In this document: piece by piece, positions 1,862 to 18,427 of the stretch | How positions within the stretch are numbered: the first letter of the stretch is position 1 | Layout of the letters: each line of letters opens with the position of its first letter | Source: Mycobacterium sp. | Lineage (GTDB): Bacteria; Actinomycetota; Actinomycetes; Mycobacteriales; Mycobacteriaceae | Reading direction: 5' to 3' | DNA length: 64,000 nucleotides | NCBI GenBank assembly: GCA_020438865.1 | Contig: JAGQTU010000009.1 | Location: 16,907-80,906 of the forward strand | The notes under the pieces: generated by a model | What the model saw: the letters and a program-made list of their open reading frames with translations, nothing else | The model's database searches: none | Told to the model about the DNA's origin: nothing | Made by a program: the position numbers and the translations under genes

Positions 1862-2689
1862 TCAGCGCTCCTTGAAGAAGAAGTCGTGGGCGTTGTTGTA
1901 GAGGTAGTTCTCCAGCACGTCGGGCGGCAGGTCGAGGGCCAGCGCCTCGGGGACCAGCCGGCTCATCTTCAGTACCGGCCAGTCCGAGGCGAACATCACC
2001 TTGTTGCGGCCGCGGGTGCGCATGTAGTGCAGAAGGCTCTCCGGCAGCCGTTTCGGCGACCACGCCGATGTCATCAGGCGCAGGTTCTCGTACTTGATCA
2101 GCAGCCGGATCGCGATGTCCCACCACGGGTCCGCACCGTGGATCATGCACAGCCGCAACTCGGGAAACCGCACGCACACCCGGTCGAGGTGGATCGGGTT
2201 CTGCACCTCACCGGGGATCGGGGGTCCGGGCAGGCCGGTGTTGAGGCACAGCGGCAGGCCGATCTCGGCGCACTTGGTGTACAGCGGGTAGTAGACGGCA
2301 TCGCTCGGCGGGTACTGGGCGTCGCCCCAAAAGCTCGGTCCGACAGCGGCGTACACCACCGGCAGGTCGGCGACGACGGCGGTGAGCTCACGCAGCGTGG
2401 GCATCGGCCGCAGCAGGTTGAGCCCTCCCATGGCCAGTGCGAACCGGTCGGGTCGGGCCTGAGCGAAGCTGCGCGCGGTGACGTGCGGCTTGGTGATGTT
2501 GTCCATCAGGATCGCCTTCTGCACGCCGTGGGCGTCCATCTCGTCGAGCAACTGGTGCAGGTCCACCGGCGCGAACATCGACTCCGGGCCCTTGAAGTAG
2601 TCGTCGCGCACCTTCAACATCCAGGTGGGCTGTTGCTCCGTCTCACCGAAGTGCACATTGACCAAGCCGTCGATCACCTTCGGGCTCAT
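1862..2689 (-). CDS. Amidohydrolase-2 family protein (275 aa)
   Basis: TIM-barrel amidohydrolase of the ACMSD/gamma-resorcylate-decarboxylase-like family (PF04909). Members remove CO2 from, or hydrolyse, ring-derived acids. The barrel landmarks CMIHGADPWW (beta-strand histidine) and the C-terminal FASDWP with the metal/catalytic Asp are present. The N-terminal metal motif, normally H-x-H, reads VNVHFGE, so one of the two histidines is missing. Metal content and exact chemistry are therefore uncertain. It overlaps the upstream CoA ligase by 4 bp and abuts the next acyl-CoA dehydrogenase, so it belongs to the same transcript. Finding two such proteins beside a CoA ligase suggests a cyclic or ring-opened acyl-CoA substrate (inference). 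Confidence 0.75.
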   Translation of the reverse strand: MSPKVIDGLVNVHFGETEQQPTWMLKVRDDYFKGPESMFAPVDLHQLLDEMDAHGVQKAILMDNITKPHVTARSFAQARPDRFALAMGGLNLLRPMPTLRELTAVVADLPVVYAAVGPSFWGDAQYPPSDAVYYPLYTKCAEIGLPLCLNTGLPGPPIPGEVQNPIHLDRVCVRFPELRLCMIHGADPWWDIAIRLLIKYENLRLMTSAWSPKRLPESLLHYMRTRGRNKVMFASDWPVLKMSRLVPEALALDLPPDVLENYLYNNAHDFFFKER

Positions 2690-4305
2690 GACAGTGCGGC
2701 TCCCTGCTGTTGGGTGGCAACGGTTTTCGCCCAGCGGTAGTCGGCCTTGCCGTTGCCCAGCCGCTTGACCTGGTCGACGGTGATGAACTGCTTGGGGGCC
2801 TTGTAGCGGGCCAGTTCCGTGGTGCAGTGCGCGTGCAGTTCGTCATGCGTCACGTCGGCGCCGTGGAACGCCACCACCGCGACCAGTTCCTCACCCCACC
2901 GCTCACTGGGCCGCCCGACCACCAGCGCGTCGGCGACCCCCGGATGGGCCCGCAGCACCTCTTCGACCTCCTCGACGAAGACCTTCTCGCCGCCGGTGTT
3001 GACCACCAGGGAGTCTCGGCCGAACAGCCGCAGCGTGCCGTCGGCGGCCAGCGACCCGCGGTCACCGGAGATCACCACGCGCTGCCCGTCGACCTCGGGG
3101 AATGTCACGCGGGTGGCCTCGGCGTCGTCGAAGTAGCCCAACGGAATTCGCCCGGCCCTCGCCACCCAGCCGACCTGCTCCTCACCGGGGCCGAGGAACC
3201 GGCTGTAGTCGTCGGCCAAAACCAGTGCTCCCTCGCGCAGTTCGAAGGTGTCCTTGTGGTCGTCACGCATGCTGCGGCCGAATCCGACGTTGCCGGTCTC
3301 CGAGGACCCGTAGCCGTTGATCAGGATGATGTTGGGCAGCATCTCCAGCAGTGCGCGCTGGTGTCTGGGATTGGTCGCCGCTCCCCCGGTCGCCAGGGCG
3401 TACAGCGAGGACAGGTCGTAGCTGCCATCCCGAAGCGCCGCGACCAGCGGTGCGGCGTAGGCGTCACCGACCATCGTCATCATGCCGACCTTGTGACGCT
3501 GCGCCGTGGACAGCACCCGGTCGGGATCGAACTTCGTCGAGTCGTAGAGCACGACGGTCTGCCCGTTGAGCACCCCGGCGAAGGCGGTCCACATGCCGGC
3601 GGCGTGCATGAGCGGTGACACCGCGAACCATGGCGGTCCCGGGGTGCCCAGCTTGGCGTGGATCTCGGCGGCGGACTGGTGGTCGGCGCCGTTCATCGAG
3701 ATCGTGTAGGTGTCGGCCTGCCGCCACATCACGCCCTTGGGTCGTCCGGTGGTGCCGCCGGTGCAGATCATCAGGACGTCGTCCGGTGACGGGGTGATGT
3801 CCTGGTCGGTATCGCCCTGTGCCAGAGCGTCATCCAGGCTGACCGCACCGGGCAGGTCGGGTCCGTCGGCACCGTCGTCGATCGAGATCATCAGGGTGGC
3901 GCTGGCCGGCGGGAGCACGTCGGCGAACTTCGGGGCCAGTGAACGGTGACAGATCACCGCGGTCGGTCTGACGTAGTCGAGTAGCTCGGCGACCTCGCGC
4001 GGGGTGTAGTGATAGTTGACGTTGACCGGAACGGTGCGGGCCTTCAGGCAGCCGATGACCATGTCGGGGTACAGGTCGTTGTGCATGATCAGCGCGACGC
4101 GGTCCTGGCCGCACTCCCAGTTCTGGAGCTCGTCCCGCTCGCGGTGCGCCCCGAGACCCTGCGCGGCAAGAAAGTTGGCCAACCGACGGGTGCGGTCGGC
4201 GGACTCGGCGTAGGTGCTGACACGTTCCCCGCACACCGTCATCGGACGGTCGGGGATCACCTCGGCGATGGCGTCGAGGACTTCGCCGATCGTCCACTGC
4301 GCCAT
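2686..4305 (-). CDS. Acyl-CoA synthetase, FadD19-like (539 aa)
   Basis: ATP-dependent acyl-CoA ligase of the ANL superfamily, activating a carboxylic acid through an acyl-adenylate. The P-loop CTGGTTGRPKGVMWR lies near residue 183, the YGSSETGN acyl-AMP motif follows, and the C-terminal catalytic lysine segment is NGKADYRWAK. The GTTGRPKGVMWR and GKADYRWAK wording matches the mycobacterial FadD19/FadD17 type used for steroid side-chain acids, so a bulky or branched substrate is plausible. An insert of about 12 residues (HRERDELQNWECG) after the first helix is unusual. The gene lies between two amidohydrolase-like genes, with 2-bp and 4-bp junctions, in a leftward operon. The true substrate is not determined. 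Confidence 0.85.
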   Translation of the reverse strand: MAQWTIGEVLDAIAEVIPDRPMTVCGERVSTYAESADRTRRLANFLAAQGLGAHRERDELQNWECGQDRVALIMHNDLYPDMVIGCLKARTVPVNVNYHYTPREVAELLDYVRPTAVICHRSLAPKFADVLPPASATLMISIDDGADGPDLPGAVSLDDALAQGDTDQDITPSPDDVLMICTGGTTGRPKGVMWRQADTYTISMNGADHQSAAEIHAKLGTPGPPWFAVSPLMHAAGMWTAFAGVLNGQTVVLYDSTKFDPDRVLSTAQRHKVGMMTMVGDAYAAPLVAALRDGSYDLSSLYALATGGAATNPRHQRALLEMLPNIILINGYGSSETGNVGFGRSMRDDHKDTFELREGALVLADDYSRFLGPGEEQVGWVARAGRIPLGYFDDAEATRVTFPEVDGQRVVISGDRGSLAADGTLRLFGRDSLVVNTGGEKVFVEEVEEVLRAHPGVADALVVGRPSERWGEELVAVVAFHGADVTHDELHAHCTTELARYKAPKQFITVDQVKRLGNGKADYRWAKTVATQQQGAALS

Positions 4306-4307
4306 GG

Positions 4308-5501
4308 TCAGGCCGTCACCTTGACACCCAGCAGATCCAAGGCATTGTCGCGCATGATCTTTCGGACATCCGAGTCGCTGAACGCGGTCAGCTCCTTCGC
4401 GTAGTCGATGGGCGACTCGAGGCCTTCGCCGTGCGGCCAGTCCGACCCGAACAGAATCTTCTCGACTCCGATGATGCCGGCCAGCTCGGAGAGACCGTCC
4501 TCGTAATAGGGCGCGATCCAGACGTTGGTGATCAACTGCTCGACCGGATCCACGGTGTAGTGGCGCGGATGGTTGTTGGCTGACTTCTTCAGGCGCTTGA
4601 TCAGCCGGTGGACGAAGTACGAGCCGTTCTCGATGCTGACCGCCTTGAGCTTGGGGTGGCGGGTGAACACGCCGTGCACGATCATCGAGGCCATGGTGTC
4701 GTGGATCGCACGGTCGTCCATGAGTACCTGATCCAGCGGGTCACGGGCGCCGAACCCCTCGAATGTCGAGTTGCCGCCCCACCATCCGCGGATCTGCAGA
4801 TAGCCGCTGTCGCTGAGGTGGAAGCCCACCGGCACGCCGGCCTCGGCCAGTCGCGCCCACACCGGATCGTGCAGTGGGTCCCCCAGCGAGCGCGGCTTGA
4901 CCACCCCGGGCACCGGAGCCGGCCGCACCAGCACGATCCGCGCTCCCCGGGCAAGCACGAAGTCCACCTCTTCGACGGCCTGCTGCGGATCGGCGAGCGA
5001 GATGATCGGCGCGGCGATGACGCGATGGTCGGGCCGGTCGAATCCCCAGTCCTCGTCGAGCCACAGGTTGAACGCGTGCACCGACGCCATGGTCGCCTCG
5101 ACGTCGTGTTTGAGCGCCTCCTCCACGCCGCAGGCGAAAGTGGGCAGCATGAACACGGTTTCGAGGCCCTGGGCGTCCATCACGGCAACCCGGGCGTCCC
5201 GATTCTGGTACTCCGGGTGGTCGGCGAGACGCTCCACCTTCATCAAGGACGACGGGTCGACGCCGTCGGGAACGGTGCCACGGAAGAGCAGGTCCAGACA
5301 GCCGGGCACGATGATCGGGTCGAACGTCGGATTGGGGATGAAGTGGTTGACGCGGCCACCGATGACGACCTGGGTGTGTTTACCGTCCTGGAAGACCTGT
5401 ACCCCACGGCGTTTGAACTTCTTGTCGAGGTGACGGGTGAACGAGTCCAGCGGCTCGTAGTAGTGGTTGTCGACGTCGATGACTTTGTAGTCCAGTGCCA
5501 T
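4308..5501 (-). CDS. Amidohydrolase family protein (397 aa)
   Basis: A second TIM-barrel amidohydrolase (PF04909 type) in the same operon. The N-terminus reads VIDVDNHYYEP, the D-x-D-x-H-Y-Y-E variant common in actinobacterial members. Further landmarks are GFHLSDSG in mid-protein and FGSDWPHGEG near residue 365, carrying the conserved Asp and His. The start chosen is the ATG at 5501 because it has a strong ribosome site (GAGAGGA, 7 nt upstream) and begins exactly at the conserved domain. An open frame continues upstream but runs over the crotonase gene. Members of this family act in decarboxylation or C-C hydrolysis of activated ring or keto acids. The activity here is inferred only from fold and context. 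Confidence 0.78.
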   Translation of the reverse strand: MALDYKVIDVDNHYYEPLDSFTRHLDKKFKRRGVQVFQDGKHTQVVIGGRVNHFIPNPTFDPIIVPGCLDLLFRGTVPDGVDPSSLMKVERLADHPEYQNRDARVAVMDAQGLETVFMLPTFACGVEEALKHDVEATMASVHAFNLWLDEDWGFDRPDHRVIAAPIISLADPQQAVEEVDFVLARGARIVLVRPAPVPGVVKPRSLGDPLHDPVWARLAEAGVPVGFHLSDSGYLQIRGWWGGNSTFEGFGARDPLDQVLMDDRAIHDTMASMIVHGVFTRHPKLKAVSIENGSYFVHRLIKRLKKSANNHPRHYTVDPVEQLITNVWIAPYYEDGLSELAGIIGVEKILFGSDWPHGEGLESPIDYAKELTAFSDSDVRKIMRDNALDLLGVKVTA

Positions 5502-5518
5502 GATGGTGTCCTCTCGGC

Positions 5519-6361
5519 TCAGCTGAGCGGCGGAAAGCTCGGCGGGCGCTTCTCGAAGAAGGCGGTGATGCCCTCGATGAAGTCCGGGCGGCGCATTGAC
5601 TCGTGCATGAGCGTCTCGGCAAGGCCGCTGCTCTCGGCGATCTCCCGCAGTGCGTCGCCGTACACCTGTCGCTTGATCACCGCCAGCGAGCTCGGCGCGC
5701 AGTTGGCCGCGATGTCCTCGGCGTAGGCGATGGCGCGGGGCAGCAGGTCCTCGGGGGCGAGGACCTCCTTGACCATGCCGAGTTCGGCGGCCTCCTCGGC
5801 GAGGAAGACCCGGCCGCTCAGCAGCAGGTCCAGCGCCGCGCCCCAGCCGATGACGCGGGGCAGGATCCAGGAGATGCCGTACTCGGCGATCAGCCCGCGG
5901 CGGGCGAAGGACGTCGTGAACTTGGCTCCGGCGGCGGCGAATCGGACGTCGCACATCAGCGCCTGGGTCAGGCCGATGCCGGCGCAGGCGCCGTTGATCG
6001 CGGCGATGACGGGCTTGCGCAGGGTGGTCAGGAAGAACGCGTGCCGCTCCCCGACCATCGCGGACAGGTCGGCGTCCCCGGCGCTCTCGACGGTGGCCGA
6101 CCCGATGCTGTTCAGGTCGCCCATGTCGGCTCCGGCGCAGAAGGCGCGGCCGTTGCCGGTGATGACGATCGCCCGGACCGCCGGATCGGCCTCGGCCCGG
6201 TCCAGGCCGGCGTAGAAGCCCGCGGCCAGCCCGCCGCCCCAGCCGTTCATCCGCTCCGGCCGGTTGAGGGTCAGGATCGCCACCCCGCTCTCGCGCGCCT
6301 CGTACAGAACGGCTTGGGCCGCACCGGAATCCGCCGCGAGGTCAGCCTGGCCAGTCGTCAC
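5519..6361 (-). CDS. Enoyl-CoA hydratase/isomerase family protein (280 aa)
   Basis: Crotonase-fold protein. The oxyanion-hole segments are visible: GRAFCAGADM near residue 73 and INGACAGIGLTQALMCD near residue 128. The two glutamates that catalyse classical hydration (normally in GGGxELA and in PE) are absent: the first site reads GIGLTQAL and the second SFARRGLIAEYG. It may therefore be an isomerase, thioesterase or C-C lyase-type crotonase rather than a hydratase. It is the first gene after the promoter region at 6362-6439, which contains the island's shared operator motif. It probably heads the transcript that runs down through the amidohydrolases, CoA ligase and acyl-CoA dehydrogenases. 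Confidence 0.82.
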   Translation of the reverse strand: MTTGQADLAADSGAAQAVLYEARESGVAILTLNRPERMNGWGGGLAAGFYAGLDRAEADPAVRAIVITGNGRAFCAGADMGDLNSIGSATVESAGDADLSAMVGERHAFFLTTLRKPVIAAINGACAGIGLTQALMCDVRFAAAGAKFTTSFARRGLIAEYGISWILPRVIGWGAALDLLLSGRVFLAEEAAELGMVKEVLAPEDLLPRAIAYAEDIAANCAPSSLAVIKRQVYGDALREIAESSGLAETLMHESMRRPDFIEGITAFFEKRPPSFPPLS

Positions 6362-6391
6362 CTACGCGCACCCTCCCACCTCGGCATTTGT

Positions 6392-6416
6392 CTATACTGT
6401 ACACCTATCGGTATAG
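6392..6416. promoter_or_regulatory. Candidate operator with CTATAC/GTATAG arms
   Basis: Inverted repeat with perfect 6-bp arms CTATAC (6392-6397) and GTATAG (6411-6416), enclosing TACTGTA (6395-6401). It lies 31-55 bp upstream of the crotonase start at 6361, overlapping likely promoter elements on the minus strand. The 22 bp from 6395 align with 17 identities to 11655-11676, in front of another operon of the same island. Likely ligand-controlled repression by the local TetR protein (inference). Confidence 0.6.
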
Positions 6417-6439
6417 CCTTCCGCAATGGTGTTCCGGGC

Positions 6440-7237
6440 TCAGGTGAAATCGCTGCCGCCGTCGACGTTGATGTTGGCGCCGGTCATGTAGGAGTTGCGC
6501 CGGGACGCCAGAAACGCGACGACGGGACCGATCTCGTCGGGCAGGCCGGCGCGGGGCAGGTGCGCGGGATGCCCGAAGTGCTTGTCGATGGCGGTCATCA
6601 GGGCGTAGGGGTCGGAGCCGTCGACGCCGACCGAGTCCGCCCAGCCGACGAGCGCCTCGGAGGCGATGCTGCCGGGTGAGACGACGTTCACCATGATCTC
6701 GTCGGGCGCGAGCAGTTGCGAGAGGTTCTTGGAGATGCTGGTGACCATCGCCTTCGCCGCGGTGTAGGCCGCCAGGTTGGGGCTCTGCCGCTGGGTGGAC
6801 TGCGCGGAGAAGTTGACGATGCGCGCCCACTGCGCCCGGCGCAGCAGTGGCAGGGCCGATCGCACGCAGTGCACCATGCCCATCACGCCACCGTCGACCG
6901 CCTTGTGCCACTGCGCGTCGCTGAGTTGCTCGACGCTGCCCTGCACGGCGGGGCCGACGGTGTTGATGAGGATGTTCAGCTCGCCACCCCACCGCTCGGC
7001 GATCTCGTCGAACATCTGCTGAACCTGATCGGCGTCCTCGACGTCGGCGACCATCGCGACGGCGTCGGGGCTGCCCCGGGCGCTCAGATCGGCTGTGGCA
7101 CTGTCGAGTACGGCCTTCGTGCGGCCGACCAGGGCCACTCGGGCGCCGTCGTCGGCCAGGCACCGCGCGGCGGCCAGGCCCATCCCGCGTCCACCGCCGA
7201 CCACGACGGCGGTGGCGTCCCTCAGTCCGAGGTCCAC
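6440..7237 (-). CDS. Short-chain dehydrogenase/reductase (265 aa)
   Basis: Classical Rossmann-fold SDR. The dinucleotide-binding loop GGGRGMG is at residues 14-20, the acidic residue of VADVEDA near 65, and the catalytic residues are Ser144 (NFSAQS), Tyr158 and Lys162 (YTAAK). The usual NNAG motif is NTVG, a mild departure. The C-terminus NINVDGGSDFT is typical of the FabG-like group. It probably oxidises a hydroxyacyl-CoA or alcohol intermediate of the pathway. The start is a GTG with a weak ribosome site. It is divergent from the TetR gene with the operator at 7288-7310 in between, and is separated from the next leftward gene by a second promoter region. Confidence 0.85.
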   Translation of the reverse strand: MDLGLRDATAVVVGGGRGMGLAAARCLADDGARVALVGRTKAVLDSATADLSARGSPDAVAMVADVEDADQVQQMFDEIAERWGGELNILINTVGPAVQGSVEQLSDAQWHKAVDGGVMGMVHCVRSALPLLRRAQWARIVNFSAQSTQRQSPNLAAYTAAKAMVTSISKNLSQLLAPDEIMVNVVSPGSIASEALVGWADSVGVDGSDPYALMTAIDKHFGHPAHLPRAGLPDEIGPVVAFLASRRNSYMTGANINVDGGSDFT

Positions 7238-7287
7238 GACCCTGCGTCCGACACCAGGCAGCCTCCACGTCGTGTTCGCTGGTATCG

Positions 7288-7314
7288 GTAAAACCTACTA
7301 TAGGGTTTACAGTA
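7288..7314. promoter_or_regulatory. Candidate TetR operator in divergent promoter
   Basis: The 10-bp arms GTAAAACCTA (7288-7297) and TAGGGTTTAC (7301-7310) around CTA match at 9 of 10 positions. The right arm runs into TACAGTA (7308-7314), the core shared with the other promoters of the island. It sits between the SDR gene (start 7237) and the TetR gene (start 7329), where an autoregulatory operator is expected. Confidence 0.6.
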
Positions 7315-7328
7315 ACTGGAAGAGATCG

Positions 7329-8030
7329 ATGGAAGGTGGACCTGCAGTGGCCAAGCCAGCGACCGCGGCGAAGCGCCCTCGGCGCGAGCGTGGGTCGATC
7401 AACCCCGACGACATCATCGCCGGCGCATTCGAACTCGCCGAGCAGGTGTCGATCGACAACCTGAGCATGCCACTGCTCGGCAAGCACCTCGGGGTGGGTG
7501 TCACGAGCATCTACTGGTACTTCCGCAAGAAGGACGACCTGCTCAACGCGATGACGGACCGGGCGCTGCGCCAGTACGTGTTCGCCACCCCGTACGTCGA
7601 GGCCGACGACTGGCGCCAGACCCTGGCCAACCACGCGCGCTCGATGCGAAAAACGTTCATGGGCAACCCGATCCTGTGCGACCTGATCCTGATCCGCTCG
7701 GCGCTGAGCCCACGGGCGGCCAAGGTCGGCGAGCAGGAGGTGGAGAAGGCGATCGCCAGTCTGGTCGAGGCCGGCCTGTCCCCCGAGGATGCGTTCGACG
7801 TCTACTCGGCGGTGTCGCTGCACGTACGGGGTTCAGTTGTGCTGCACCGGCTTCACGAGAAGAACCAGGACGCCGACCGCGACTCGCACGCGCTGGAGGA
7901 CACCATCCGGGTCGGCGCCGCCGACGACCACAACTTCGAGTACGGGCTGCAGTGCATCCTCGAGCACGCCGAGCGTCTGATCGAGGACGGCAGGAAGTCC
8001 TCTCCCGCGAGCAGACGCAAACGTCCCTGA
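7329..8030 (+). CDS. TetR family transcriptional regulator (233 aa)
   Basis: TetR-type repressor. The N-terminal helix-turn-helix is seen at about residues 24-70 (IIAGAFELAEQ ... LLGKHLGVGVTSIYWYFRKKDDLL). The C-terminal helical ligand-binding domain resembles no family I can name. The ATG at 7329 was chosen because GGAAGAG lies just upstream. The GTG at 7347 has an equally good site and would give a protein 6 residues shorter. Being divergent from the SDR gene and flanked on both sides by operons carrying the same TACTGTA-containing elements, it is the best candidate for the pathway-specific regulator. An acyl-CoA intermediate as inducer is plausible by analogy with KstR and similar regulators. 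Confidence 0.85.
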   Translation: MEGGPAVAKPATAAKRPRRERGSINPDDIIAGAFELAEQVSIDNLSMPLLGKHLGVGVTSIYWYFRKKDDLLNAMTDRALRQYVFATPYVEADDWRQTLANHARSMRKTFMGNPILCDLILIRSALSPRAAKVGEQEVEKAIASLVEAGLSPEDAFDVYSAVSLHVRGSVVLHRLHEKNQDADRDSHALEDTIRVGAADDHNFEYGLQCILEHAERLIEDGRKSSPASRRKRP

Positions 8031-8066
8031 AACGGCGGCGTGTCGGGCGCCTTTGCGTCTGTTCGC
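8007..8066. terminator. Long inverted repeat between convergent genes
   Basis: The arms 8007-8021 and 8052-8066 (GCGA-G/A-CAGACGCAAA) match at 14 of 15 positions, with a 30-nt loop. The left arm lies inside the last codons of the TetR gene, and the right arm lies just before the thiolase stop at 8075. There is no long U-tract, as is common for mycobacterial intrinsic terminators. It could stop transcription from both sides. Confidence 0.6.
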
Positions 8067-8074
8067 CGGTAGGC

Positions 8075-9250
8075 CTAGACCTCGATGACGACCGCGCCGC
8101 CCTGACCGCCGCCGGCGCACATCGCGGCCACACCGATCCCGCCACCGCGCCGACGCAGTTCGTAGACCAGCGTGGTGACCATCCGCGCGCCGGAGGCTGC
8201 GATCGGATGGCCCAGGCTGCAGCCGCTGCCGGAGAAGTTCACCAGTTCCTCGTCAAGGCCGTACTTGCGGCAGGCCGCGATCGGCACCGACGCGAACGCC
8301 TCGTTGATCTCCCACAGCGCCACGTCGGATGGCGTGAGCCCGGCGCGGTCGAGCACCTTGCCGATCACCTCGACACCGCCCAGTCCGGTGTCGCGCGGCG
8401 GGACGCCGACCGCGGCCCATGCCTTGACCGTCGCCATGACGTCGAGATCCTTGTCCAGCGCGTACGCCCGGTCGACGAGAGCCACCGCCGCACAGGCGTC
8501 GTTGGTGCCGCTGCTGTTCCCCGCGGTGATCGAGAAGCCCTCGATCTCCGGGTGCAGCACCTTGAGCTGGGCCAGCTTCTCGGCGGTGGTGTCGCGGCGC
8601 GGATGCTCGTCGACGCTGAAGTCGACCACCGAGCCGTCCAGCTGCTGGATCTTCAGCGGCAGGATCTCGTCGAGGAACTTGCCGGCGTCGATCGCGGCGA
8701 TGGCCCGCTGGTGGGACCGCGCGGCCCAGGCGTCCATGTCCGCACGGCTGATGCCGGCCGCCTGCGCGGTGTTCCAGCCCACCGTGATCGACATGTCTTT
8801 GGTCGGGGCGTCCGGCGTCTCGACGTGGGTGGGCGGCATCCACCGCTCCTCGAACTTCAGCTCCGGGCCGATGATGCGCTGGCTCATCAGCGGGGTCATC
8901 GACAGCGACTGCACGCCGCCGGCGATCAGAACGCGCTCCATGCCCGAGCCGATCTGCGCCGAGGCGTTGCCGATCGCGGTCAGGCTGCCCGCGCAGTGCC
9001 GGTTGACCGACTGACCGGGAACGTGCTCGAGCCCGGTCGCATCTGCGGCATAACGGGCGAGATCTCCTCCACCGTAATGTGATTCGGCGAAGATCATGTC
9101 GTCGATATCGGCGGGATCGATGCCGGCGCGACGAATGACCTCGGGCACGATCGCGGTGATCAGCGTCTCGGGCGGAGTGTTGACCAGCGTCCCCTTGAAC
9201 GACCGGCCGATCGGGGTCCGGACTGCGCCGACGATGACTGGTTCGGGCAT
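8075..9250 (-). CDS. Thiolase / acetyl-CoA acetyltransferase (391 aa)
   Basis: Degradative-type thiolase that cleaves a 3-ketoacyl-CoA with CoA. The nucleophilic Cys86 is in VNRHCAGS, the histidine is in GHPIAASGARM near residue 348, and the second cysteine is Cys378 in CAGGGQGG. Length is normal for FadA/AtoB-type thiolases. The ATG at 9250 has an AGGAG ribosome site. Its own promoter region contains the palindrome GATACTGTATC at 9295-9305. In the pathway it would carry out the last, chain-shortening step after the crotonase and SDR reactions. It converges with the TetR gene across a long inverted repeat. Confidence 0.92.
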   Translation of the reverse strand: MPEPVIVGAVRTPIGRSFKGTLVNTPPETLITAIVPEVIRRAGIDPADIDDMIFAESHYGGGDLARYAADATGLEHVPGQSVNRHCAGSLTAIGNASAQIGSGMERVLIAGGVQSLSMTPLMSQRIIGPELKFEERWMPPTHVETPDAPTKDMSITVGWNTAQAAGISRADMDAWAARSHQRAIAAIDAGKFLDEILPLKIQQLDGSVVDFSVDEHPRRDTTAEKLAQLKVLHPEIEGFSITAGNSSGTNDACAAVALVDRAYALDKDLDVMATVKAWAAVGVPPRDTGLGGVEVIGKVLDRAGLTPSDVALWEINEAFASVPIAACRKYGLDEELVNFSGSGCSLGHPIAASGARMVTTLVYELRRRGGGIGVAAMCAGGGQGGAVVIEV

Positions 9251-9294
9251 GGTTCTCCTGTGGTCGACGCGTCAACAGCGTTACAAAACTAGCA

Positions 9295-9305
9295 GATACT
9301 GTATC
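9295..9305. promoter_or_regulatory. Palindrome GATACTGTATC upstream of thiolase
   Basis: Perfect 11-bp palindrome 45-55 bp upstream of the thiolase start at 9250, containing the TACTGTA core (9297-9303) found in the other promoters of the island and followed by TATCGGT, also present at 6406-6412 and 7283-7289. Probable operator for the pathway regulator. Confidence 0.5.
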
Positions 9306-9323
9306 GGTCCCGGCAGGGGGTGC

Positions 9324-10190
9324 TCAGCCCGGTTCGGGAACGTGGAAATGCTCGTCACGCAGCCGGAACGCTTCTTTGGTGCCGTGCTGGGCACGGGCCT
9401 TGACGAAGTTGAACTCCCCCGGCGCGAACTGCAGGTTGGTGCCGTAGGCGTGGAACAGGTAGCTGGCGACTTCCTCGCCCTGGTAGGCCTGGCTCTGCTC
9501 GACGAGCCGGAACGCCTCCTTGGCGATGACGACGCCGTCGGCCGGCATCTTCGCCGCCTTCTCGGCCCAGTACCGGGCGCGGGCGGTCACGGCCGTGGCC
9601 TCGCAGGTGTCGGTGAAGACACCGAGCTGCTCGACCTCGGCGGCGGTGATGATGTCGCCGGTGAGCAGCAGGCGCCGCGCCAGCACCGGGCCCAGTCGGT
9701 GGAAGAACAGGTGCAGGCTGCCCAGTGCGGGGCCGAGGAACCGGGTGGCCGGCATCCCGATCTTGGTGTCGCGGGCGATGACGGAGATGTCGGTCATCAG
9801 CGCCATCTCGAAGCCGCCGCCCAGGGCGTAGCCGCTGATCTCGCCGACGGTGACCTTCGGGAAGCCCATCAGGTTGTGGTAGAAGCCGAACGTCTTGCGG
9901 TCCACCGTCAGCCGGCGACGCTGACTCGGCCGGCTTCGGGGCTCCTTGTCCGCCTTGCCGTACCAGCCGTAGGCGTTGTTCATGTCCGCCCCGGTGGAGA
10001 ACACCCCCTCGGCTCCGCGCAGCAGCACGACGGTGATGTCGTCGTCCTCGGCGGCGGTGTCGAGATGACGGGCGAGCGTCTCGCGCATCGCGGCGTCATA
10101 GGAGTTGCGCTGGGCGGGGTTGTTGAGCGTGATGGTGGCGATGCGGCGGTCGGCGTCGACCTCGAACAGCACCCGATCGTCGGCGGTCAT
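9324..10190 (-). CDS. Enoyl-CoA hydratase/isomerase family protein (288 aa)
   Basis: Crotonase-fold protein with the oxyanion-hole motifs EGVFSTGADMNN (near residue 62) and ISGYALGGGFEMALMTD (near 120). Here the first catalytic glutamate is retained (GGGFEMAL), but the second position, normally PE, reads GMPATRF. It could be an isomerase or a hydratase with altered chemistry. The start overlaps the stop of the GntR regulator gene by 4 bp, so it is expressed with the regulator and the thioesterase. It is the only crotonase of the four in this island that keeps a canonical glutamate. Confidence 0.83.
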   Translation of the reverse strand: MTADDRVLFEVDADRRIATITLNNPAQRNSYDAAMRETLARHLDTAAEDDDITVVLLRGAEGVFSTGADMNNAYGWYGKADKEPRSRPSQRRRLTVDRKTFGFYHNLMGFPKVTVGEISGYALGGGFEMALMTDISVIARDTKIGMPATRFLGPALGSLHLFFHRLGPVLARRLLLTGDIITAAEVEQLGVFTDTCEATAVTARARYWAEKAAKMPADGVVIAKEAFRLVEQSQAYQGEEVASYLFHAYGTNLQFAPGEFNFVKARAQHGTKEAFRLRDEHFHVPEPG

Positions 10191-10954
10191 GGCATGCTCC
10201 TCGAAATCAGCTTGGCCTCAATGGTTCTGTCCCGGCCGAACGCCAGGGTGTTGCGTCGGGCCGCGGCCAGGTGGTCCTGCGCCAGCCGCACCGCCCGATC
10301 GGCGTTGCCGTCCCGGATCGCGTCGACCAGCCGCTGATGGTCGCGCAGTGCGGCCCGCATGGTCTTGTGCGCCATCGGGTCGCCCTCGTCGCCCCACACC
10401 GAGGACTCGTGCGCCGACCAGATCAGCTCCAAGGAGCCGATCAGCAGGATCATCGGCTCGTTGCCGCACCGCGACACCAGCGCCTCGTGAAACCGGCGCG
10501 CGTTGCGGACGTACTGCGAGGCGTCGCCGAACTGCTCTTCCTGCCGGTCGATTTCGACCTGCAGGTAGGGCACCACCTCGGTGAGGCGGTCTTCGCGGGC
10601 GGCGCACATGCCCGCGCAGATCGGTTCGAGGTGGATGAGCGCGCCGCTGACGTCGGCCGGCGTCGAGGACCGCGACTGCAGCACCATGCTGATCATGTGC
10701 GCGGTGCGTTCGGCCGACGGCAGGTGCACCACGGCGCCGCCCACGTTGCCGCGGCGCACCGAGACCAGGCCGTCGACCTCCAGGATGTGGATCGCCTCGC
10801 GCAACGCGGGCGGGCTCACGCCGAACTCGGTGAACAGGCTCTCCTGCGAGGGCAGGATGTCGCCCTCCTTGAGCCGGCCGGACAGGATGTCGTCACGCAG
10901 GCGCGCGGCCACGATGTCGGCGACCCGGGGCTGACGGATGCGGGGTGCGGCCAC
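10187..10954 (-). CDS. GntR family regulator, FadR-C (FCD) type (255 aa)
   Basis: Winged-helix regulator. The N-terminal GntR domain spans about residues 8-75 (LPSQESLFTEFGVSPPALREAIHILEVDGLV), followed by an all-helical FCD effector domain. The metal-site residues of that domain are suggested by RRFHEALVSRCGN and HQRLVDAI. FCD regulators respond to carboxylic or acyl compounds. It is the middle gene of a thioesterase-GntR-crotonase transcript and probably autoregulates through the 20-bp palindrome at 11633-11652. The island thus has two regulators, TetR and GntR, which may sense different intermediates. Confidence 0.87.
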   Translation of the reverse strand: MAAPRIRQPRVADIVAARLRDDILSGRLKEGDILPSQESLFTEFGVSPPALREAIHILEVDGLVSVRRGNVGGAVVHLPSAERTAHMISMVLQSRSSTPADVSGALIHLEPICAGMCAAREDRLTEVVPYLQVEIDRQEEQFGDASQYVRNARRFHEALVSRCGNEPMILLIGSLELIWSAHESSVWGDEGDPMAHKTMRAALRDHQRLVDAIRDGNADRAVRLAQDHLAAARRNTLAFGRDRTIEAKLISRSMP

Positions 10955-10957
10955 CGG

Positions 10958-11608
10958 TCAGGCCTCGCGCCGTCGGCCGAATCGGCTGGCGGACAGCCGT
11001 TCCGGGGGCAGGGCGGCGGTGTCGGCGGTCCCGGTGCATAGCACCTCGCCGTTGAGGGTGAGCCGGGCCGTGGCGGTGATACCGCGTGCGTCGTGGACCC
11101 GTTGGATGTCGAAGTGCAGTTCGGTGTCCAGCGGTGTCGGTCTGCGATAGGTGACCGTCAGCGTGCGGGTCTTGCCCGCGGCGCCGACCGTACAGCTCTG
11201 GTGCTGGATCACGCAGTCGAAGAACACCCCGAGGAAGCCGCCGTGTACCAGTCCCGGCGGGCCCTCGAAGACGAGCGGGAACGTCGCTGTCCCACTGGCC
11301 GTTTCGGGGCTGATCTCGTTGAAGTGATACTCGGGGAAGCACGGGTTGTACGCACCGAGATCGAACGCGTGCTGTAGATAGACGCGCCTGTCCTCGGTGT
11401 CGTCGACCATCCGCGGCCGCGGGTCCGACGGCAGCGCGGGGGCCAGCTCGTCTTCCCACTGCGCGAACTGGCCGAGCATCTCCTCCACCACCGGGTGTGG
11501 TTGCTCGAGTGAGAGCAGCATGCCGGTGAGCCTGCGGATAGCCGCAGCCGCGGCGACGGTCTGGGCGTGCGGCAGTTCACCGAACCGCCGATCCTCGCCG
11601 TCCGCCAT
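10958..11608 (-). CDS. PaaI-like hotdog-fold thioesterase (216 aa)
   Basis: Hotdog-fold acyl-CoA thioesterase, recognised by LVHGGFLGVFFDCVIQHQ near residue 117 followed by KTRTLTVTYRRPTPLDTEL. It is longer than stand-alone hotdog proteins because of a roughly 75-residue helical N-terminus. It may release CoA from dead-end intermediates. The ATG at 11608 has GAGGGGA just upstream and is preferred to the in-frame GTG at 11620, which forms part of that ribosome site. It is the first gene of the leftward thioesterase-GntR-crotonase transcript, divergent from the crotonase at 11699. The divergent region holds two candidate operators. Confidence 0.78.
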   Translation of the reverse strand: MADGEDRRFGELPHAQTVAAAAAIRRLTGMLLSLEQPHPVVEEMLGQFAQWEDELAPALPSDPRPRMVDDTEDRRVYLQHAFDLGAYNPCFPEYHFNEISPETASGTATFPLVFEGPPGLVHGGFLGVFFDCVIQHQSCTVGAAGKTRTLTVTYRRPTPLDTELHFDIQRVHDARGITATARLTLNGEVLCTGTADTAALPPERLSASRFGRRREA

Positions 11609-11632
11609 GCGTCCCCTCACCGGGCTATCCTT

Positions 11633-11652
11633 GCTATCTTGTACAAGATAGC
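11633..11652. promoter_or_regulatory. Perfect 20-bp palindrome, candidate GntR operator
   Basis: The arms GCTATCTTGT and ACAAGATAGC are perfectly symmetric with no spacer. The centre CTTGTACAAG fits the GT-N-AC type core of FadR-subfamily GntR sites. It lies 25-44 bp upstream of the thioesterase start, in the same operon as the GntR regulator gene. Confidence 0.65.
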
Positions 11653-11654
11653 AC

Positions 11655-11676
11655 TACTGTAGGTCCATCCGTATAG
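11655..11676. promoter_or_regulatory. Second copy of the island operator element
   Basis: TACTGTA (11655-11661), 9 bp, then GTATAG (11671-11676). It aligns without gaps to 6395-6416 with 17 of 22 identities. It lies 23-44 bp before the start codon at 11699 and next to the 20-bp palindrome, so the rightward operon could be under control of both local regulators. Confidence 0.5.
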
Positions 11677-11698
11677 CGGCGAAAGGGTGGATTCCGCG

Positions 11699-12523
11699 GT
11701 GGGTGACCACAGGCCGGCAGGCGAGTACCAGACCATCACCTACGAGGTCGACGGTCACACGGCCACGATCACCCTGAACCGCCCCGACGCGCTCAACGCC
11801 TTGAGCCCCTTCATGATCACCGAACTGCGGGCGGCCTATGACGCCGCCGAGAACGATGACGACGTGTGGTTGCTGATCGTCACAGCCACCGGCCGCGCCT
11901 TCTGCACCGGGGCCGACGTCAAGGAGATCCCCGAAGACGGCAAGGTGATCAACGAACGGCCCTACCTGTCCAGCTACGACCAGTGGGAGGCGCCGCAGGA
12001 GGGCACTCCCCCGTTCCGGCGGATGGCCAAGCCGGTGATCGTCGCGGTCAATGGGATCTGCTGCGGGGCAGGTCTGGACTGGGTGACCACCGGCGACATC
12101 GTGATCGCCTCCGACCAGGCGACATTCTTCGATCCGCACGTCTCGATCGGGCTGGTCGCCGGCCGGGAGATGGTGCGACTGGCGCGGGTGCTGCCGCGCT
12201 CGGTGGCACTGCGGATGGCGATCATGGGCAAGCATGAACGGATGAGCGCCGAACGCGCCTACGAACTGGGTCTGATCACCGAGATCGTCCCGCACGACCG
12301 GCTTCTCGCCCGGGCTCGCGAGATCGCCGACACCGTCAACCGCAATGCCCCACTGGCTGTGCGCGGCACCCGCCTGGCCGTCATCAAGGGCCGCGAGATC
12401 CCGATGCACGAGGCCGAGATGCTGGCCGAGGCATTCCGGGAACGCAACCTGCACACCGAGGACTCACTCGAGGGTCCGAAGGCGTTCGTCGAGAAGCGCG
12501 AACCGAACTGGCGGTGCCGATGA
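11699..12523 (+). CDS. Enoyl-CoA hydratase/isomerase family protein (274 aa)
   Basis: Crotonase-fold protein with ATGRAFCTGADVKE near residue 65 and VNGICCGAGLDWVTTGD near 115. Both classical hydratase glutamates are replaced (GAGLDWV and DPHVSIGLV), so plain hydratase activity is doubtful. The GTG at 11699 was chosen because AAAGGGTGG lies 8 nt upstream. The GTG at 11687 is too close to that site. It is the first gene of the rightward operon, overlaps the next crotonase by 4 bp (ATGA) and resembles it in the motif FFDPHVS versus FFDSHVS, suggesting a duplicated pair that may work as a heteromer. Confidence 0.82.
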   Translation: MGDHRPAGEYQTITYEVDGHTATITLNRPDALNALSPFMITELRAAYDAAENDDDVWLLIVTATGRAFCTGADVKEIPEDGKVINERPYLSSYDQWEAPQEGTPPFRRMAKPVIVAVNGICCGAGLDWVTTGDIVIASDQATFFDPHVSIGLVAGREMVRLARVLPRSVALRMAIMGKHERMSAERAYELGLITEIVPHDRLLARAREIADTVNRNAPLAVRGTRLAVIKGREIPMHEAEMLAEAFRERNLHTEDSLEGPKAFVEKREPNWRCR

Positions 12524-13311
12524 CCGCGGCGTTCGAGACCATCCTGCTCGACTTCGACCGGACCGACCACGTCGCGACCATCACACTGAACCGGCCGGAC
12601 CGGCTCAATGCCTTCAACCGCACGATGTGTGAGGAGATGGCGGCGGCGTGGCGGATCGTCAAGCACGACACCGCGATCCACGCGGTGGTGCTGCGGGCCG
12701 CCGGCGACCGCGCGTTCAGCGCGGGTCTGGACGTCACCACCCCCTACGGTCAGCCGCACAACGTGTGGAACCACGAGGACCCCGGTGAGCTGCTCAGCCC
12801 GAAGTGGCAGAAGATGTGGAAGCCAGTGGTGTGCGCGGTCCACGGGATGTGCACCGCCGGGGCGTTCTACTTCGTCAACGAGGCCGACGTGGTGATCTGC
12901 TCGTCGGATGCCACGTTCTTCGACTCCCATGTCAGCGCCGGACTGGTCTGCGCGCTGGAGCCGGTGGGGTTGATGCGCAAGATCGGATTGGGTGAGACGT
13001 TGCGCATGGCGCTGATGGGCAACGACGAACGGGTCAGCGCCGAGACCGCGATGCGGATCGGCCTGGTGTCGGAGGTCGTCGCGCCCGACGACCTGTGGAG
13101 CCGGGCACACGAGATCGCGGCCACCATCGCCGCCAAGCCGCCGTCGGCGACGCAGGGCACGGTCAAGGCGATCTGGGAGTCACTGGACAAGCCATACCGG
13201 GCCGCGATGGAGCAGAACCTGATCTACACCCGGTTGGGAAACCCGTTGGGGCAGGCCGAGCTTGCCGAGCAGGAGGACGACGGGACTCGGGCCGCTCCGA
13301 AGGTCCGGTAG
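12520..13311 (+). CDS. Enoyl-CoA hydratase/isomerase family protein (263 aa)
   Basis: Crotonase-fold protein with AGDRAFSAGLDVTT near residue 65 and VHGMCTAGAFYFVNEADVV near 108. The catalytic glutamate positions are again non-canonical (TAGAFYFV and DSHVSAGLV). The start is the ATG at 12520, whose ATGA overlaps the previous stop. This is preferred to the GTG two codons earlier. It is translationally coupled to its crotonase neighbour and to the following CoA ligase, whose GTG overlaps this stop (TAGTG). Function within the pathway is not determined. Confidence 0.82.
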   Translation: MTAAFETILLDFDRTDHVATITLNRPDRLNAFNRTMCEEMAAAWRIVKHDTAIHAVVLRAAGDRAFSAGLDVTTPYGQPHNVWNHEDPGELLSPKWQKMWKPVVCAVHGMCTAGAFYFVNEADVVICSSDATFFDSHVSAGLVCALEPVGLMRKIGLGETLRMALMGNDERVSAETAMRIGLVSEVVAPDDLWSRAHEIAATIAAKPPSATQGTVKAIWESLDKPYRAAMEQNLIYTRLGNPLGQAELAEQEDDGTRAAPKVR

Positions 13312-14762
13312 TGGACCACCCGCTGAGCCGGCGCATCTCGATCGCGCTCGAGCTGGACACCGACGGACCGGCGATCGAGTGCGAAGGCCGCTGGTCGTCC
13401 TGGCGGCAGCTCGGAATGCTGAGCCGGGCGGTCGCCGATGTCGTGACCCCCGGTGCCGAGGTGGGCATCCTGCTGCGCAACACCCCGGCGCACGTGGCGG
13501 CACTACTGGGTGTCCTGTTGGCCGGGGGATGCGTCGTCGTCGTCAACCCCTCCCGCGGGGATGATCGCACCAGGACCGACATCGCAGCGCTGAACCTGCC
13601 CGTGATCGTCGGCACCGCCGAGGACATCGCCGCGCTGGTCGACCCGTCGCCAGCGACGAGGGTGGTGACGATCGCGGACCTCGACACCGCACCGACGGTG
13701 GCGGGGGTGCCGACGCCGGTCGGCTCCCCGGGAGTAGCGGTGCGCATGCTGACCAGTGGCACCACCGGCCCGCCCAAGCGAGTCGATCTCAGCTACGACA
13801 TGCTGGCCGTGTCGGTCATGGGCGCCGACTTCGCGGATTCGGTTGCGCCGGCGGAGCTCTCCTCGGGGGTCGCGATCGTCAATGCGCCACTGGTGCACAT
13901 CGGCGGGGTGTACCGGGTGCTGCAGTGCGTCGCCGAGGCCCGGCCGTTCGTGCTGTTGCCGCGCTTCGACCTGGACACGTGGGCCGATGCGGTACGCCGC
14001 CACCGTCCGAAGGCCGTCTCGCTGGTGCCCGCCGCACTGCGCGCGGTGCTGCACTCTGATCTGGGGCCCGTGGATCTGACCGGCATTCGCGCCGTCACCT
14101 GCGGCACCGCACCACTGTCCGCCGACGATGCCGAGGCGTTCACCGAGAAGTTCGGCATTCCCGTGCTCACCTCGTATGCGGCCACCGAATTCGGTGGCGG
14201 CGTCGCGGGCTGGACACTGGCCGATCACCACAGGTACTGGAAAGCCAAGCGCGGCAGCGTGGGCCGGGCCAGCCTGGGCGCCCGGCTGCGGGTGGTGTCC
14301 GAGGACGGGACGGTCCTGGGTTCCGATGAGGCCGGCCTGCTGGAGGTCAAGCCGGGCCAGCTGGGGCCGGACGCCGACTGGGTGCGCACCACCGACCTGG
14401 CCCGCATCGACGCCGACGGGTTCCTGTGGATCCTGGGCCGCGCCGACCAGGCGATCATCCGCGGCGGCTTCAAGGTCCTGCCCGACGACGTGCGCGCCGC
14501 CCTCGAGTCTCACCCCGCCGTCCTGGGTGCGGCCGTGACGGGCCGGCCGGACTCGCGGCTGGGTGAGGTTCCCGTGGCGATGGTCGAACCACGTGAGCCG
14601 GTCACCGCCGCCGAACTCGTGGATTTCCTGCGAAATCGGCTGGCGCCATACGAGATTCCGGTGCAGATCGCGGTGGTGGATACCATCCCCCGCACCCCTT
14701 CGGGCAAGCCCGACCTGACCGCGGTCCGCGACTACTTCACCGTGGGTGACCGTGCCGTCTGA
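13311..14762 (+). CDS. Acyl-CoA synthetase / AMP-binding protein (483 aa)
   Basis: ANL-superfamily ligase. The P-loop at residues 148-157 reads LTSGTTGPPKRV, with arginine where nearly all members have glycine (PKG). The adenylate motif is YAATEFGGG and the C-terminal catalytic lysine segment is RTPSGKPDL. The start is the GTG at 13311, overlapping the previous stop. An open frame extends upstream but only through the crotonase gene. It is the first of three consecutive CoA ligases in one transcript. It is shorter than standard FadD proteins because it lacks an N-terminal extension. The substrate is unknown. The PKR change does not by itself rule out activity. Confidence 0.83.
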   Translation: MDHPLSRRISIALELDTDGPAIECEGRWSSWRQLGMLSRAVADVVTPGAEVGILLRNTPAHVAALLGVLLAGGCVVVVNPSRGDDRTRTDIAALNLPVIVGTAEDIAALVDPSPATRVVTIADLDTAPTVAGVPTPVGSPGVAVRMLTSGTTGPPKRVDLSYDMLAVSVMGADFADSVAPAELSSGVAIVNAPLVHIGGVYRVLQCVAEARPFVLLPRFDLDTWADAVRRHRPKAVSLVPAALRAVLHSDLGPVDLTGIRAVTCGTAPLSADDAEAFTEKFGIPVLTSYAATEFGGGVAGWTLADHHRYWKAKRGSVGRASLGARLRVVSEDGTVLGSDEAGLLEVKPGQLGPDADWVRTTDLARIDADGFLWILGRADQAIIRGGFKVLPDDVRAALESHPAVLGAAVTGRPDSRLGEVPVAMVEPREPVTAAELVDFLRNRLAPYEIPVQIAVVDTIPRTPSGKPDLTAVRDYFTVGDRAV

Positions 14763-16224
14763 CCACATCGACACCGTGGGGCGACTGCTCGCCGGGCAGG
14801 CGACCGCGCGCGGCGAGCATCCCCTGCTCGTCTGCGACCACGAGCGGCTGAGCTACCGCGACGCCGAGGAGCGCTCCGCCGATCTGGCCCGCGGACTGGT
14901 CGCCCTCGGCGCCGGCAAGGGCACCCATGTCGGTGTGCTTCACCCCAACGGCGCGGCGTTCGTCCTCGCCGCGCTGGCCGCGGCCCGCATCGGCGCCGTC
15001 GTCGTCCCGTTCTCGACGTTCGCCACCGACCCGGAACTGCGAGACCAACTGGTGCACAGCGACACCGAGATCCTGCTGACGGCAGAAGCGTTCCGCGGTC
15101 ACGACTACGCGGCGCGACTGGCGGACATCTCCGCACCCTCGCTGCGGCACGTGGTCGTCGACAACCGGATCACCGACAGCGCCGACGCGGCACTGGTGTC
15201 GGCACTGGAGCGCGACGTCGACGGCTGCGACCCGTTGGCCATCATCTACACCTCCGGGTCTACCGGGGTGCCGAAGGGCGCGGTGCACACGCACGAGTCG
15301 CTGCTCGGACATCAGCGCAACCTCAACGAGATTCGCGGGCTGACCGCGCAGGACCGGTTGTTCTGCAACTCGCCGTTCTTCTGGATCGGCGGGTTCGCGT
15401 TCGCCCTGCTGGCCGCGCTGACCGCCGGTAGCACCCTGGTGTGCTCCAACGCCACCGACCCCGCCGACACCCTCGACCTGCTCGAGGCCGTCCGCCCGAC
15501 CGTGACGAACGGATTCACCGCCGGCGTAGCGCATCTCGCGCGGCACCACAGCTTCGCCGGGCGCGACCTGTCGTCGATGCGACGGGGCAATCTCTACCCC
15601 ATCATGGCTCCCGAGACGCGGCCGGCCGACCCCGAGCTGCGGCACGCCATGCTGGGCATGACCGAAGGGGGCAGCGTCGTGCTGCTCAGCGGTGACGACG
15701 GCGACCAACCCGAACACCGGCGCGGGTCGTTCGGCAAACCCGCCCCCGGATTCCAGACCCGCGTCGTCGACGGCGAGCTGTGGTTACGTGGGCCGTTCCT
15801 GATGCAGCACTACCACAAGCGCAGCCGTGAAGAGAGTTTCGACGCCGACGGCTGGTTTCACACCGGCGATCTTGTCCGCGTGGACGAGGACGGCTTCGTC
15901 TACTTCCTCGGCCGGTTGGGATCGATGATCAAGACCGCCGGGGCCAACGTCTCCCCTGGCGAGGTGGAGAAGGCGATCGCCAACGTGGCCGGATTGGTCG
16001 CGCACGTCGTCGGTGTCCCGGATGCCGAGCGGGGACAGGTGGTCGCGGCGGCGGTGCTGGCGGACGAGGGACAGGAGTTCGACGAGGCCGACTTGCGGGA
16101 GCGGCTTCGGACCGAGCTGTCGGCCTATAAGATTCCGCGACGCTTCATCGTGCTGACGGAGCTGCCGTTGATGTCGAGCGGCAAAGTCGACGTGCGCCGG
16201 CTGGTGGGGCTGTTTGATGCCTGA
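14746..16224 (+). CDS. Acyl-CoA synthetase / AMP-binding protein (492 aa)
   Basis: ANL-superfamily ligase with the P-loop IYTSGSTGVPKGAVHTH near residue 167, the adenylate motif as LGMTEGG, the hinge TGDLVRVDEDGFVYFLGR near 376 and the catalytic lysine in SSGKVDVRRL at the C-terminus. It overlaps the previous ligase by 17 bp and the next by 8 bp. It is clearly related to the next gene: both share PFFWIGGF/PFFWVGGF, the LGMTE adenylate motif and GKVDVRRL, which points to tandem duplication. It may activate a different intermediate or stereoisomer from its neighbours (inference). Confidence 0.85.
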   Translation: MTVPSDHIDTVGRLLAGQATARGEHPLLVCDHERLSYRDAEERSADLARGLVALGAGKGTHVGVLHPNGAAFVLAALAAARIGAVVVPFSTFATDPELRDQLVHSDTEILLTAEAFRGHDYAARLADISAPSLRHVVVDNRITDSADAALVSALERDVDGCDPLAIIYTSGSTGVPKGAVHTHESLLGHQRNLNEIRGLTAQDRLFCNSPFFWIGGFAFALLAALTAGSTLVCSNATDPADTLDLLEAVRPTVTNGFTAGVAHLARHHSFAGRDLSSMRRGNLYPIMAPETRPADPELRHAMLGMTEGGSVVLLSGDDGDQPEHRRGSFGKPAPGFQTRVVDGELWLRGPFLMQHYHKRSREESFDADGWFHTGDLVRVDEDGFVYFLGRLGSMIKTAGANVSPGEVEKAIANVAGLVAHVVGVPDAERGQVVAAAVLADEGQEFDEADLRERLRTELSAYKIPRRFIVLTELPLMSSGKVDVRRLVGLFDA

Positions 16225-18343: not shown

Positions 18344-18345
18344 TT

Positions 18346-18362
18346 TGGCGCTAACAGCGCCA
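18346..18362. promoter_or_regulatory. Palindrome upstream of vapBC
   Basis: TGGCGC (18346-18351), 5-bp spacer, GCGCCA (18357-18362), ending 3 bp before the vapB ATG at 18343. The location fits an operator for autorepression by the VapB-VapC complex. Binding is inferred. Confidence 0.45.
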
Positions 18363-18427
18363 TACTGCAATGCCCTCACCGGACTGGCCCGTTGCGCCAC
18401 GACGAGCGATCGGGTGCAATCGGTCTC

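Follow-up and report, generated by a model that had tools for sequence, protein, structure and literature searches.

A conserved 19-bp inverted repeat as the likely operator of a TetR-family regulator in a mycobacterial acyl-CoA-type catabolic island

Results

The stretch of DNA analysed here (the window; 64,000 nucleotides, positions 16,907 to 80,906 of contig JAGQTU010000009.1 in the Mycobacterium sp. assembly GCA_020438865.1, written C366:16907-80906 below) opens in a catabolic island that carries copies of a 19-bp inverted repeat, the subject of this study, together with the gene of a TetR-family protein (tetR, 7329-8030, plus strand, 233 aa). Judged by its N-terminal helix-turn-helix and its C-terminal domain, the tetR product is a TetR-family one-component regulator: it scored 45.7 bits against PF00440 (TetR_N, cut-off 24) and 38.3 bits against PF02909 (TetR_C_1, cut-off 21). 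The part of the island inside the window holds genes for acyl-CoA dehydrogenases, two amidohydrolases, enoyl-CoA hydratase-like and acyl-CoA-ligase-like proteins, a short-chain dehydrogenase (SDR), a thiolase, and TetR and GntR/FCD regulators. On the contig the island extends about 13.5 kb upstream of the window, which nearly doubles its visible length, with genes for luciferase-like monooxygenases, a carboxyltransferase, a monooxygenase-like flavoprotein, an isochorismatase-like protein, a P450, an aldehyde dehydrogenase (ALDH), a family III CoA-transferase, a further thiolase and an acyl-CoA dehydrogenase.

Copies of the repeat were named as predicted operators. Operator A (6395-6413, minus strand, TACTGTACACCTATCGGTA on the plus strand) is asymmetric and strongly conserved and lies in the promoter of a predicted target operon made up of Ech1, AH2b, FadD1, AH2a and FadE_b (809-6361, minus strand, continuing upstream of this interval). 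Operator B (7296-7314, TACTATAGGGTTTACAGTA), with one mismatch to TACTGTA-N5-TACAGTA, is the sole operator between tetR and the divergent SDR gene (6440-7237, minus strand), a predicted target, and is the predicted autoregulatory site. Operator D (11655-11673, minus strand, TACTGTAGGTCCATCCGTA on the plus strand) is located between the gene 10958-11620 and Ech3. On one side of it is a predicted target operon (9324-11620, minus strand) containing the 220-aa gene 10958-11620, a GntR/FCD-family regulator gene (10187-10954, minus strand, PF00392 and PF07729) and Ech2; on the other side, Ech3, Ech4 and three acyl-CoA-ligase-like genes (11687-17719, plus strand) are a possible target. Upstream of the window, operators were found at C366:3424-3442, 11301-11319 and 14097-14115 (locus L046), near a carboxyltransferase/luciferase-like pair, the P450 gene and an ALDH/CoA-transferase pair.

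A preliminary description of the window had singled out the heptamer TACWGTA (W, A or T) as an operator motif present in each promoter region of this part of the island. The heptamer does occur at 6395-6401, 7308-7314, 9297-9303 and 11655-11661, with no other copy in the window, and all four copies lie in gaps between the open reading frames (ORFs) taken as genes (6362-6439, 7238-7328, 9251-9323 and 11621-11686). A 22-bp comparison of the copies at 6395 and 11655 gave exactly the 17 identities described. The accompanying chance estimate was about one copy at roughly 70% G+C; the G+C content of the window is 68.4%, the chance expectation is 0.35 copies per window (standard deviation 0.54), and none of 100 dinucleotide shuffles contained at least four. 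As TACWGTA with W considered is its own reverse complement, the strand of a heptamer is uninformative. A second string pointed out at the same time, TATCGGT, is present at 6406, 7283 and 9302, but also at 21754 and 62479 (other strand). It was rejected as a separate motif, since the copy at 6406 belongs to operator A as its distal part; on visual comparison, the copy at 7283 is kept in some close relatives only and the copy at 9302 in none of the five relatives compared.

The preliminary description had proposed a genome-wide search, and the motif proved to be neither frequent nor scattered. In the whole assembly (4.96 Mb, 366 contigs, 90.9% complete) TACWGTA occurs 16 times, and eight of these copies fall within C366:3424-28567, a span of about 25 kb in the island and upstream of it. 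Half of the eight precede the window, and two of these four, 12 bp apart, form TACTGTA-ATCTT-TACAGTA, which pointed to a 19-bp unit, TACWGTA-N5-TACWGTA. A search for TACTGTA-N5-TACAGTA with up to three mismatches returned 15 places, six of which are island operators. The four matches with zero to two mismatches are all in the island (C366:11301 with none, 14097 and 24202 with one each, 3424 with two), and the 11 matches with three mismatches include the window sites at 6395 and 11655. Outside the island, the window sequence at 28355-28373 (AACTGTAAGGCATACGGCA) differs from the operator at three positions. Mirrored strings gave 105 matches for the 19-mer and 203 for the heptamer, above the motif's own counts; because a mirrored string differs in dinucleotide make-up, we relied on shuffles and palindromic controls instead. 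After the genome scans the heptamer alone was dropped as the operator in favour of the double-arm unit: as read from the sites, what is conserved is a 19-bp element in which two heptamer arms follow each other at a distance of 12 bp. We also considered whether the perfect palindromes upstream and the asymmetric sites of the window are separate classes of operator, each with its own regulator. Such a division is unneeded, because the arms are 12 bp apart at all sites and the sites occur in genomes that have one TetR match.

Conservation before tetR was determined in relatives at the best 80 of 286 tetR loci (named, with up to 10 kb on each side), one of which had less than 300 bp of upstream sequence and was left out of the upstream test. 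In a count that presupposed no motif, the 7-mer found in most of the 300-bp regions before tetR was TACTGTA/TACAGTA (76/79). The double-arm operator with at most two mismatches was present upstream of tetR at 76 of the 79 loci versus 0/79 for each of 11 composition-matched palindromes. When the spacer was varied across the 80 loci, N5 gave 143 sites; N4, N6 and N10 gave 11, 14 and 48, and the remaining spacers from 0 to 15 gave between 0 and 8. The secondary peak at spacer 10 may come from operator A, where downstream bases resemble a third arm. Operator B is conserved at 1.80 bits over 19 positions versus 0.65 and 0.43 bits in its flanks (25 dereplicated rows, chosen, as in all these conservation figures, for holding a site). 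In the protein, a helix-turn-helix stretch of 28 residues is identical in 75 of the 80 TetR orthologues.

For the other promoters, island genes were placed by tblastn in 91 stretches, made up of the 80 loci and 11 longer ones (mapped coding sequence, 1.37 of 1.97 Mb). Here a site was defined more loosely, as one exact arm with at most three mismatches in the other or at most two mismatches overall, and a promoter as the 250 bp upstream of a gene; operon-internal genes, and no palindromes, served as the control for this definition. Some genomes are represented twice (at least G024, identical to L071, and G018, identical to L074) and the species are related, so the counts describe conservation and not independent events. 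Among 343 sites in the 91 stretches, one fell in mapped coding sequence with end margins and four without them. Sites were found in 77/83 promoters of Ech1, 86/89 of tetR, 52/69 of SDR and 62/65 of the 10958-11620 gene, as well as before the carboxyltransferase (4/4), P450 (3/3) and ALDH (3/3) genes. FadE_a, FadE_b, AH2a, FadD1 and AH2b have no site of their own (0/73-79 promoters each), nor do Ech4 and the three ligase-like genes (0/68-77), GntR2 (0/22) or FadE_c (0/17), and Ech2 had one in 1/78. The operator lies before several operon heads and not before mapped operon-internal genes.

Rows for the sequence alignments were anchored on exact TACAGTA (64 of 73 Ech1 and 60 of 62 mapped 10958-11620 promoters), which inflates the 19-column figures of 1.90 and 1.67 bits, and the 12 operator columns outside the anchor were used instead. 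These are conserved at 1.84 bits before Ech1 (flanks 0.69/0.48, 24 dereplicated rows) and at 1.48 bits before the 10958-11620 gene (flanks 0.51/0.97, 13 dereplicated rows). The lone TACAGTA upstream of the thiolase gene (site C, 9297-9303, minus strand; thiolase, 8075-9250, minus strand) was rejected as a full operator, its second arm having three mismatches and a site being present in just 4/22 mapped thiolase promoters. Site C is not a conserved operator, and control of the thiolase gene by the operator is doubtful.

Across 198 genomes of the genus, a site with at most one mismatch was present in 133 of the 152 genomes with a TetR orthologue (mean 2.5 sites) versus 3 of the 46 without. Seven genomes with a best TetR match at E values of 4e-45 to 5e-56 were counted as non-carriers; counted as carriers, they change these figures to 133/159 versus 3/39. 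The operator-A form TACTGTANNCCTATCGGTA, again with at most one mismatch, was found in 135 of the 198 genomes, 135/152 with a TetR orthologue versus 0/46 without, and its reversed control matched once. Among the matches listed, from 25 genomes, 67 of 75 sites share a contig with tetR and are at most 50 kb from it. Species that keep the predicted regulon include M. gordonae, M. scrofulaceum, M. szulgai and M. sphagni.

Mycobacterial -10 elements follow the pattern TANNNT. The Ech1 promoter contains a putative -10, TACAGT (6396-6401, minus strand), which fits this pattern and lies inside the gene-proximal arm of operator A, and a putative -35, TTGCGG (6421-6426, minus strand), 19 nt from it, with TTG(C/T)GG largely kept in the 24 rows. 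With this spacing, operator A would occupy the interval from -35 to -10 and extend over the -10 itself. An exact TACAGTA forms the gene-proximal arm in 73/77 sites before Ech1, 84/86 before tetR and 56/62 before the 10958-11620 gene, and the distal arm is exact in 3/77, 0/86 and 6/62. The SDR sites are reversed (proximal arm exact in 0/52, distal arm in 51/52), as is expected of one operator common to SDR and tetR. A proximal arm that fits TANNNT was present in 50/52 SDR and 6/9 CaiB sites.

Directly beside operator D, a perfect 22-bp palindrome (11632-11653, TGCTATCTTGTACAAGATAGCA) had been overlooked in the preliminary description. A 24-bp form of it with at most one mismatch was found in 18 of the 23 stretches in which GntR was mapped versus 0 of the 54 without GntR. 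With up to five mismatches the counts were 19/23 versus 11/54, the latter mostly forms such as TTGCTAACTTATACACCGTAGCAA. This distribution suggests that the palindrome is probably the operator of the GntR regulator. In four stretches with GntR mapped (L079, L080, L103 and L106) the palindrome is changed beyond five of its 24 positions, and GntR may have another operator there.

The products of Ech3, Ech4 and the three ligase-like genes match their families below the curated cut-offs, and the 10958-11620 product has no Pfam or NCBIfam match; a thioesterase label for it is a guess. A PDB search for clues to the substrate returned no match at 1e-60 for the P450, one match, to an uncharacterised protein, for an amidohydrolase and only general relatives for the thiolase, and gave no substrate. 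Two ORFs, 4308-5954 and 13095-14762, overlap their upstream genes. The 4308-5954 protein aligns over just 0.72-0.84 of its length in 7 of 10 relatives, and its true start is probably further in. At the edge of the island (17725-18874), a gene for a PIN-domain protein and a neighbouring ORF with a FitA-like ribbon-helix-helix match form a probable VapBC-type toxin-antitoxin pair.

Discussion

We consider it likely that the heptamers belong to a local regulon controlled by the TetR protein encoded at 7329, with TACWGTA-N5-TACWGTA as the operator. The preliminary description had proposed a single regulon under this protein, and the tetR promoter (76/79), the placement at operon heads and the co-occurrence in 198 genomes support it. 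What had to be revised is the unit, which is the 19-bp repeat and not the 7-mer, the membership of the copy at 9297, which is not a conserved one, and the extent, as the regulon takes in further operons that precede the window and one of its promoters carries the GntR-linked palindrome.

What was observed is where the sites lie, how they are spaced and conserved, and that they co-occur with tetR; from this we infer the following mechanism. TetR, probably as a dimer, would bind the 19-bp inverted repeat at its own divergent promoter and at the heads of the surrounding acyl-CoA-type catabolic operons, to about 13.5 kb upstream of the window. The gene-proximal arm matches the -10 pattern at most of these promoters, so that bound TetR would block RNA polymerase until an intermediate of the pathway releases it from the operator. 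Through the adjacent palindrome, the promoter at 11.65 kb is probably also controlled by the GntR/FCD regulator, a second layer that is lineage-specific. The cluster would thereby very probably be switched on and off together.

Several observations weigh against this model. Coverage is partial for some promoters (CaiB 9/16, SCP-thiolase 4/9, GntR 5/23, Ech3 1/77, the sole Ech3 case being that of this assembly). A general scan for consensus promoters found none, the carboxyltransferase proximal arms fit TANNNT in 0/4, and both arms of a site tend to fit this pattern anyway. Among the 152 genomes with tetR, 19 have no site at one mismatch and nine have neither form. None of the 145 genomes with AH2a lacks a TetR match, and as no genome separates tetR from AH2a in this direction, a link to TetR and a link to the whole island look alike in the co-occurrence data; of the seven genomes with tetR and no AH2a, two carry a site. 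The association of the operator is therefore with island and tetR in combination, rather than with TetR by itself. Furthermore, no site was found in the 1.5 kb before 7 of the 11 further TetR homologues that we inspected, namely two distant homologues, three in which the helix is changed (L149-L151) and two in which it is almost the same (L146 and L152). In four loci, moreover, a second TetR may bind the operator, as described next.

Some species have a second island-linked TetR that is 48-56% identical to the first and has nearly the same recognition helix. In L063, L049, L147 and L148 an operator with zero or one mismatch precedes this paralogue by about 1.25-1.29 kb; in L063 and L049 the paralogue is directly behind the P450 gene, and the L049 match contains stop codons. 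These four loci, and the failure of co-occurrence to separate tetR from the island, leave some room for another binder of the 19-bp operator, be it the island GntR, the second TetR or an unlinked factor. We regard this as unlikely: operators are kept in four genomes in which GntR was not mapped (G006, G012, G029 and G031) and GntR tracks a different palindrome, G004, G018 and this assembly have one TetR match each at 1e-20 and yet 5, 5 and 3 sites (no second match was found in this assembly at that threshold), and the paralogues with a changed helix lack a site. The TetR at 7329 would be the most economical binder.

If the TetR does bind, it could still act as an activator at all or some promoters. 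The distances from site centre to predicted start vary, and the carboxyltransferase proximal arm is unfit as a -10 in all four cases. On the other hand, the best -10 candidate at Ech1 falls within the operator, the promoter of tetR itself contains one, and the mycobacterial precedents KstR and BkaR are described as repressors in the passages discussed below; activation is quite improbable in our estimate. The fit of TACWGT to TANNNT, and the exact arm being the gene-proximal one before Ech1, tetR and the 10958-11620 gene, would also be expected if the heptamers were just conserved -10 boxes of a common promoter type with no specific regulator. Against this, the assembly has only 16 heptamers, half of them in 25 kb, the distal arm and the spacer columns outside the anchor are conserved too, and a 5-base spacer is preferred; there are perfect palindromes among the sites, and at SDR exactness is found in the distal arm instead. 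This explanation is very unlikely. As for chance, a 7-mer alone is weak evidence, but conservation in relatives contradicts a chance origin, as do the shuffles, the clustering in the genome, the palindrome controls, the promoter placement and the co-occurrence, and its probability is negligible.

A bolder version of the model with TetR as the repressor is offered tentatively, and we hold it to be rather doubtful. One 19-bp operator could be promoter and switch at once, its arms serving as -10 elements in both directions at tetR/SDR, where it would switch the two genes jointly; in some species two TetR paralogues, one beside SDR and one behind the P450 gene, could share the operators, with GntR as a third layer that is gained and lost. 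If this were true, one pathway could be read out at different stages through two ligands.

The analysis gives a likely operator and a gene list for a catabolic regulon that is kept in much of the genus, the TetR orthologue being present in 152 of the 198 sampled genomes. The genes behind the operator are the set to view together when the substrate is searched for. It also illustrates that the reading of a four-copy 7-mer in raw sequence can lead to a real regulon.

With regard to known systems, the best solved structure by sequence for this TetR is a tetracycline repressor (5mru, E value 1.3e-14), with which it has the PF02909 C-terminal domain in common, and the operator of the tetracycline repressor is of similar length. 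A repressor of the tetracycline-resistance type was nevertheless rejected, as the protein scored 81.7 against NCBIfam PRK13756 versus a cut-off of 265. The CTGT and ACAG within the arms resemble the enterobacterial LexA box, CTGT-N8-ACAG; the mycobacterial SOS box is of another type. A LexA regulon was rejected too: the operator here is CTGT-N7-ACAG (N5 143 sites versus N6 14) and its sites cluster in a catabolic island.

Among the matches listed in the open-licence literature, none is on this TetR or motif, judged by titles and the opening of abstracts; one paper holds both heptamers, which in the matching passage flank an unrelated palindrome (PMC11980582). The closest parallels are two mycobacterial repressors. 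KstR (Rv3574 / MSMEG_6042), according to passages of PMC1995591, is an autoregulated TetR repressor whose conserved palindrome occurs in the divergent promoter of its own gene and upstream of genes for lipid catabolism; the motif TnnAACnnGTTnnA has 16 and 31 further instances in the two genomes and partly overlaps the -10 region, a precedent for the -10 overlap proposed here. The operator of the present TetR differs, being TACWGTA-N5-TACWGTA with its best matches in one island, and in C366:1-34625 the full KstR motif as given there has no match, while its bare core AACnnGTT occurs eight times, at none of the operators. BkaR (Rv2506 / MSMEG_4718), as described in passages of PMC3920632, is an autoregulated mycobacterial TetR repressor of neighbouring acyl-CoA genes that acts as a dimer on a palindrome found by cross-species conservation. 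Its motif is another one and its genes are different; the core GTTA(N)T(N4)A(N)TAAC given in that source has no exact match in C366:1-34625. By this comparison the regulator, which appears to be undescribed, would head an autoregulated mycobacterial TetR catabolic regulon like those of KstR and BkaR, with a motif other than theirs.

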